From NCBI RefSeq assembly GCF_016859285.1, contig NC_053415.1, positions 18,808,501 through 18,872,500 on the forward strand: a stretch of 64,000 nt of DNA, in the 5' to 3' direction. Positions 30,101 to 33,100 of this stretch are shown here, piece by piece (position 1 is the stretch's first letter; each line of letters starts with the position of its first letter). The position numbers and the translations under genes were made by a program. The notes below the pieces were generated by a model. The model searched no databases. It was not told the origin of the DNA and saw only the letters and a program-made list of their open reading frames with translations. This stretch comes from Xiphias gladius (lineage: Eukaryota; Chordata; Actinopteri; Istiophoriformes; Xiphiidae).

Positions 30101-33100
30101 AAAGCAACACATCCAACTGTCTGGCAGATGGAAGCCTGCACACATGATCCCACCCACCTCTTGCACAGTCTCCATTGGTGGTGGTGGATCCTTGTTGCGG
30201 CAGAGGTTAACAATGACCCAGGTAACATTGCGGAGGAAGGTAATGGGGATTGATGGGTTGATGAAAGAAAGCAGGGGCTTGACCACGCCCAGGGAGATGA
30301 CATAATCCCTGCACTGTGGACCATCACCTGGGAATGCAAGGGGCAGAGGTCAGCATACCTCTGAATAGTTGCTTCCACGCCGTACACACAAACACACACA
30401 CTTACACAATTCCATTTGACGATACTTACCTATAATGTTTCCCAAAGCCCATACAGCTTGTTCACAAACGTTTTGGTGGGGGGAGTGTAGCAGTCGCAGG
30501 AACAGGGGCACTGCATCTGGACACACAAACATCAGTGTATTAAAAATTTGCTCAAGGTCACCAATTGTGCGACTCCAATGATGAGCTCTGTTGCCTGGTC
30601 ACATTCAAACCCAAATAAAATAAACAAAATCCATAACTGTGTCACAGCTCCTGTCCAGTTAATCTAAACCTAAAAAAACATAATAATAATTTAATTAGTA
30701 GTGGGTGGGTGAGGATAAAAAGTAAGCAAAACTGTCCTGTCTTGCTGTTGCTGCGCCTTAAACAAAGCGCTCCGGGATACTTTTGCTTCAAGTGACTGTG
30801 CATAGCAGTTGTACTGCTGTGATAAGCCATTTCCAATTTGCAGAGCCTGGGTCTCTGTCTAAAATAGTCCTACACTTGAGATGACCTGTGCGAGGTTTTG
30901 TAGCTGCAGTTTCTGGGGAATCCATGCTTTAACCAAGCGCAGCCATCTTTGCAACACACACAGTGCTTGATTGGCATATTCATGACTTTCCTTTGGGCAG
31001 GAGAAATCTTAAGTTTTAGTGACCTCACTCAGTTCCCACAATCTCTATCCAATCTCTGCCTGAGCTGGGACCTGACCTCCTGAACAACTGTAAACACCTG
31101 TGTGGGTGTTCAAGACAAACACTCTTCAGATAGTAAGGGGATATGATACGATTCAGGTGACATGAATCTGATTGTTCAGTTATTTGTTGTTGTTCCTTAT
31201 CTAGGAACTAATTTTAAATATGAATCACTCTTCCTTTACAATAAATCAAAGATTTTAAAAAGCAAAAATGTAAGCTACTAGAAATCATGAAATCATAATG
31301 TTTTAAAAGATACACACTTAGTTGAATATCACAGTGCCTAAACAGAGATGCCTAACATAAATAATGATCCCATTTAATTTACGCTAGGCTGAATTTTAGA
31401 AAGTTAGACTGATTGAAGCTGAATACATGGCTTTTATTCAGAAAAGTCTGATGGACATTTGTCATTTTGATACAAAAATGGATGAAACGTTTAATTATAA
31501 TATACATATACTTGATTTAAGCAAACAAATCTTTTCCCTGTAGCATTCAGCTTATCATATGCATGCTGATCATGGTTCCCACTCTCCAGTCATGTTGTTT
31601 TTATTAGATAACAGAGCACTCTTATTTTGAAACAAAGCCATCGTCTAAAAAAATGACTGTGCCTCATTGAGTGAAGAAACAATTAAATATGCTTGCTTGG
31701 CAGATTTCAGACAGTACACAAACACACAGACTTACACAATTCCATTTGACGATACTTACCTATAATGTTTCCCAAAGCCCATACAGCTTGTTCACAAACG
31801 TTTTGGTGGGGGAGTGTAGCAGTCGCAGGAACAGGGCACTGCATCTGGACACACAAACATCAGTGTATTAAAATTTGCTCAAGGTCACCAATTGTGCGAC
31901 TCCAATGATGAGCTCTGTTGCCTGGTCACATTCAAACCCAAATAAAATAAACAAAATCCATAACTGTGTCACAGCTCCTGTCCAGTTAATCTAAACCTAA
32001 AAAAACATAATAATAATTTAATTAGTAGTGGGTGGGTGAGGATAAAAAGTAAGCAAAACTGTCCTGTCTTGCTGTTGCTGCTTGTAAACAAAGCGCCCGG
32101 GATACTTTTGCTTCAAGTGACTGTGCATAGCAGTTGTACTGCTGTGATAAGCCATTTCCAATTTGCAGAGCCTGGGTCTCTGTCTAAAATAGTCCTACAC
32201 TTGAGATGACCTGTGCGAGGTTTTGTAGCTGCAGTTTCTGGGGAATCCATGCTTTAACCAAGCGCAGCCATCTTTGCAACACACACAGTGCTTGATTGGC
32301 ATATTCATGACTTTCCTTTGGGCAGGAGAAATCTTAAGTTTTAGTGACCTCACTCAGTTCCCACAATCTCTATCCAATCTCTGCCTGAGCTGGGACCTGA
32401 CCTCCTGAACAACTGTAAACACCTGTGTGGGTGTTCAAGACAAACACTCTTCAGATAGTAAGGGGATATGATACGATTCAGGTGACATGAATCTGATTGT
32501 TCAGTTATTTGTTGTTGTTCCTTATCTAGGAACTAATTTTAAATATGAATCACTCTTTCTTTACAATAAATCAAAGATTTTAAAAAGCAAAAATGTAAGC
32601 TACTAGGAAATCATGAAATCATAATGTTTTAAAAGATACACACTTAGTTGAATATCACAGTGCCTAAACAGAGATGCCTAACATAAATAATGATCCCATT
32701 TAATTTACGCTAGGCTGAATTTTAGAAAGTTAGACTGATTGAAGCTGAATACATGGCTTTTATTCAGAAAAGTCTGATGGACATTTGTCATTTTGATACA
32801 AAAATGGATGAAACGTTTAATTATAATATACATATACTTCGATTTAAGCAAACAAATCTTTTCCCTGTAGCATTCAGCTTATCATATGCATGCTGATCAT
32901 GGTTCCCACTCTCCAGTCATGTTGTTTTTATTAGATAACAGAGCACTCTTATTTTGAAACAAAGCCATCGTCTAAAAAAATGACTGTGCCTCATTGAGTG
33001 AAGAAACAATTAAATATGCTTGCTTGGCAGATTTCAGACAGTACACAAACACAGACTGAAGGGGTAACATTTGGGAAGACAGAATGTGGGGTCAACTTAC

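Follow-up and report, generated by a model that had tools for sequence, protein, structure and literature searches.

The assembly of this fish carries a stretch of about 1.33 kb twice, head to tail, inside a gene for a nuclear-import protein, which raises the question of whether the second copy exists in the animal or was written by the assembly. The window considered throughout is the whole 64,000-nucleotide stretch C16:18808501-18872500, taken from an assembly of 690,834,319 bases in 1298 contigs. Coordinates below are those of the window, and the features discussed are collected in Table 1.

Table 1 Features at the duplicated kpna3 exon, in window coordinates
Feature	Coordinates	Strand	Basis or remark
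Copy 1 of tandem pair	30386..31715	.	Exact blocks and self-BLAST
Copy 2 of tandem pair	31716..33053	.	Exact blocks and self-BLAST
kpna3 coding region in 17 exons, exon 8 taken from copy 1	27107..44886	-	One open frame
kpna3 coding exon 8, copy 1, 87 nt, intact	30430..30516	-	AG/GT splice sites, phase 1 both sides
Exon 8 in copy 2, 85 nt, frameshift and internal TGA	31760..31844	-	Splice sites intact
CA-rich junction	31716..31731	.	Hybrid of 5' end (from ~30382) and 3' end (to ~33056)
Interspersed repeat, ~250 bases, intronic, within copy 1	30706..30952	.	Twin in copy 2 at ~32033-32277

The tandem pair and the exon it contains

When the window was compared with itself, positions 30386-31726 aligned to 31716-33053 at 99.106% identity over 1343 columns, as the original prediction of copies about 99% identical had it. 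Four exact matches, 300, 233, 213 and 212 nt long, keep register within the pair at spacings of 1325 to 1327, together with two shorter near-exact blocks at spacings of 1328 and 1330, and this in-register matching is far above chance. The runner-up among the pairs listed in the window spans 137 columns at 82% identity. As written in the assembly, then, the locus has the layout that defines a tandem duplication, namely two head-to-tail and near-identical copies of about 1.33 kb each, and its predicted placement inside kpna3 was borne out by the self-BLAST pair, the 17-exon frame and the matches to a KPNA3 bait.

The pair appears to stand alone within the part of the assembly that was searched. 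With copy 1 as query, 40 of 299 candidates were scored, making the match counts lower bounds, and the 41 matches listed comprised the two copies themselves and 39 further matches confined to the interspersed repeat, within query positions 317-571; no third full-length copy was present among these 41 matches from the 40 scored candidates. Other near-identical direct pairs were sought in 25 sampled 10-kb stretches, 20 from the same chromosome (contig C16) and five from other contigs, which amount to a small share of the 690.8 Mb, and none was found that exceeded 150 bp at more than 90% identity (the 20 C16 stretches) or more than 85% identity (the other five). No N letters occur in any of the 25 stretches. 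The window likewise has none, so a gap between the two copies is absent.

A single open frame, ending KEFNF, results when the 17 minus-strand exons between 44886 and 27107 are joined. The gene was named with human KPNA3 and KPNA4 proteins as bait, and the exons that differ between the two baits mostly match KPNA3 better than KPNA4. The exon at 29517-29648, for example, is 100% identical to the KPNA3 bait versus 93% to the KPNA4 bait, and the last exon 81% versus 59%. Two observations count against the name: the duplicated exon encodes LLHSPHQN, like human KPNA4, where human KPNA3 has LLRSPHQN, and among solved structures those that best fit exons 8-9 carry the name importin alpha-3, which we take to be KPNA4. 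Judged on the whole gene, kpna3 is the more probable assignment and is kept. The further suggestion that this gene is essential is doubtful, as mice homozygous for a Kpna3 knockout have been obtained by breeding heterozygotes and put through behavioural tests, and no difference in body weight was reported for them (PMC9279672); this evidence of dispensability concerns the mouse gene and not that of the fish.

A Pfam search of ten of the 32 listed frames of at least 110 codons matched two of them, both away from the pair. The first is a 421-aa open frame at 56657-57919 on the plus strand with RING and B-box domains, possibly TRIM13, and the second, at 15462-15887 on the minus strand, matches RCC1 repeats and possibly belongs to an RCBTB1-like gene. 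RCBTB1 and TRIM13 presumably lie near KPNA3 in man, which would fit the two frames. Elsewhere in the assembly, the start of the last contig (C1298, 16520 bases) resembles a fish mitochondrial genome, as judged by eye over positions 1-4000.

The pair contains exon 8 plus flanking intron on either side. In copy 1 this exon is intact and encodes 30 residues counting the split end codons, and its gain or loss leaves the frame unchanged because it is 87 nt long with phase 1 on both sides. The exon in copy 2 lacks a base in each of two runs of C on the coding strand and its frame is broken there, such that 17 residues are read before a stop, even though both exon copies have the same AG acceptor and GTAAGT donor. 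Since copy 2 precedes copy 1 in transcript order, the gene being on the minus strand, a transcript that used the copy 2 exon would carry an early stop. The two losses in the 85 nt of the copy 2 exon compare with no frame-breaking loss in 1572 nt of kpna3 (Fisher p = 0.003).

Differences between the copies

Outside the junction the copies differ at eight places, of which seven are small changes in length, including a complex one, and the eighth is a clean substitution (C/T, at about 31233/32558). They had been predicted to differ largely by one-base homopolymer indels; the G6/G5, G4/G3 and A5/A4 differences (copy 1/copy 2) are indeed real, the first two lying within exon 8 and breaking its frame in copy 2, which the original prediction did not mention, but they account for only three of the eight. 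In the complex change, GCGCCTTA in copy 1 stands against GCTTGTA in copy 2, leaving copy 2 net one base shorter, and the remaining single-base length differences are a T absent from copy 2 and two bases that copy 1 lacks. To our judgement, the complex change resembles the consensus of a thinly covered region, unlike an ordinary homopolymer slip.

As a yardstick for real divergence, 26 genome copies of the interspersed repeat were compared with their own majority, yielding 596 substitutions and 20 indel events, a substitution share that is overstated because the 26 are among the stronger BLAST matches, a choice that favours few indels. At the yardstick share, the probability of one substitution or fewer among eight differences is about 3e-10; if substitutions are assumed to make up 80%, it rises to 8e-5. 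Because so indel-dominated a mix is improbable under the yardstick, the differences look mostly like consensus errors and not like age. Seven of eight being small length changes, they are of the sequencing-error type expected of a homotype false duplication; a real duplication left uncorrected could show error-type differences too, and alone they prove no false duplication. Comparing the balance of substitutions and length changes with that in a repeat family from the same genome helps to tell error from age without reads, but does not by itself show whether the duplication is false or is real and uncorrected.

To judge the direction of the differences, the exon frame and the 26-copy repeat family were used. 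Direction could be assigned in four of the eight cases, two from the frame and two from the family, and in all four it is copy 2 that is altered. The base absent at copy 2's GCGC-CC is present in all 26 family copies; at the complex change, 25 of the 26 have a letter at the missing column and none has copy 2's TGT. The A5/A4 difference, the C/T substitution and the two bases absent from copy 1 lie beyond the reach of the repeat and carry no direction. If all length differences are taken as losses, the five of copy 2 sit about 75-360 bases past the junction and the two of copy 1 precede it by about 200 and 435 bases, a seam-side sorting that a random deal would produce with a probability of 1/21. 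The position of the presumed losses on the seam side of each copy is thus partly shown, and such sorting would be expected where two blocks with thinly covered ends had been left unmerged.

The junction and the origin of the pair

The prediction of a CA-rich join was accurate: the 5' end, the junction at 31716-31731 and the 3' end of the pair read alike and are all CA-rich. Two 30-mers from the pair ends, picked after the junction had been seen, reach a local score of 12, which was equalled by 24 of 20,000 random 30-mer pairs from the window. One more base differs (C/G) within the junction zone and was excluded from the difference count. Short homology common to both ends and a hybrid junction are the marks of a microhomology-mediated duplication, and on the face of the sequence they support a real event of this kind, although an assembler join on a short chance overlap could give the junction the same look.

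False duplication, whether homotype or heterotype, is given an even chance, and real duplication, decayed or not, is placed just under even; with the two so close, 'not a real feature' is a leaning and not proof. In the homotype case, one true stretch of 1.33 kb would have been written twice by the assembly, copy 2 being an assembly product. Two consensus blocks or contig ends overlapping by 1.33 kb may have been left unmerged and their ends joined at a chance CA-rich match, and the scarcity of reads at block ends would allow small length errors to persist on either side of the seam. Ko et al. 2022 (PMC9516828) trace homotype false duplications to accumulated read errors, describe a class of 'false exon gain' within one gene and give gaps between false copies on the same scaffold as a primary trait. 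The recent duplication that was originally proposed therefore stands as a tandem pair in the assembly and is not established beyond that, since the broken exon copy and the indel-dominated differences slightly favour an artefact. False duplication is also favoured because copy 2 is altered in every judged case and carries the complex change, and because losses about 75-137 bases from the junction remain, where spanning short reads, if they were used, should have corrected them.

The hybrid CA-rich junction, the window free of N and the lack of another pair in the 25 sampled stretches argue against false duplication. The same points, together with two intronic breakpoints and the absence of a third full-length copy among the matches listed, argue for a real and very recent tandem duplication, which would have arisen by slippage or end-joining between CA-rich stretches and would have left copies near-identical in life. 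Most differences would then be consensus errors that went uncorrected since the copies confuse short-read polishing, and short-read correction is described as unreliable in repeats in a study of bacterial genomes (PMC8812927). This very recent duplication is a serious possibility that falls short of an even prospect: given short-read polishing, the errors close to the junction (about 75, 100 and 137 bases away) should have been corrected by spanning reads, all four directional differences are altered in copy 2, and the complex change is, as judged above, a poor match to simple slippage. Should copy 2 instead have truly decayed after a real duplication, the losses would be mutations and the upstream exon would be dead or a 'poison' exon, giving an early stop when spliced in. 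Intact splice sites beside a frameshift and stop agree with such decay, and, Kpna3 loss being tolerated in mice (PMC9279672), an allele weakened in this way could survive. The mix of seven length changes and a single substitution is nonetheless far from the 596 substitutions to 20 indels of the repeat family, and a broken exon upstream of a good one would harm the gene if included, so that true decay is improbable.

Least probable is a heterotype false duplication, counted within the even share given to false duplication, in which two alleles of one locus were placed end to end. In an outbred fish, two alleles would often show more than one substitution per ~1.33 kb, and as only one clean substitution is found outside the junction, a single haplotype written twice is likelier than two alleles; the frame-breaking losses would also be left unexplained. 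On the other side, the copies are adjacent and near-identical, and heterotype length exceeds homotype length in five of the six assemblies in a table of Ko et al. (PMC9516828), a comparison limited to that table. The warning of an artefact that accompanied the original prediction accordingly keeps its long-read error pattern and loses some of its uncollapsed haplotype.

Consequences and comparison with known systems

If the duplication is false, the locus is a small warning that automatic annotation could give a broken or lengthened kpna3. If it is real, the pair amounts to a young structural variant of an ordinary kind in a nuclear-import gene, and were both exons intact and included, the protein would gain 29 residues, in frame and within the ARM repeats. 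At a low probability, though above that of true decay, a real young intragenic duplication may be segregating, with the second ARM-repeat exon reducing kpna3 output in the role of a poison exon or, were the losses errors, yielding an importin alpha longer by 29 residues.

Three known systems bear comparison with the kpna3 pair. Mutually exclusive duplicated exons are likewise adjacent, frame-neutral copies with splice sites kept, but this candidate was rejected: both copies should be in frame, whereas copy 2 is frameshifted with a stop and encodes no alternative segment. Microhomology-mediated tandem duplication of an exon shares the head-to-tail layout, the CA-rich ends, the hybrid junction and the intronic breakpoints, and differs from the kpna3 pair in that the latter has length changes in excess of substitutions and one broken exon copy. 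Homotype false duplication with 'false exon gain' is taken as the likelier reading, without the pair being a proven member of that class. As characterised by Ko et al., such duplications resemble the kpna3 pair in that a coding exon has a near-identical second copy inside the same gene and scaffold, and in differences that look like read errors, and they are unlike it in the gap that typically separates their copies, there being no N between those of kpna3.
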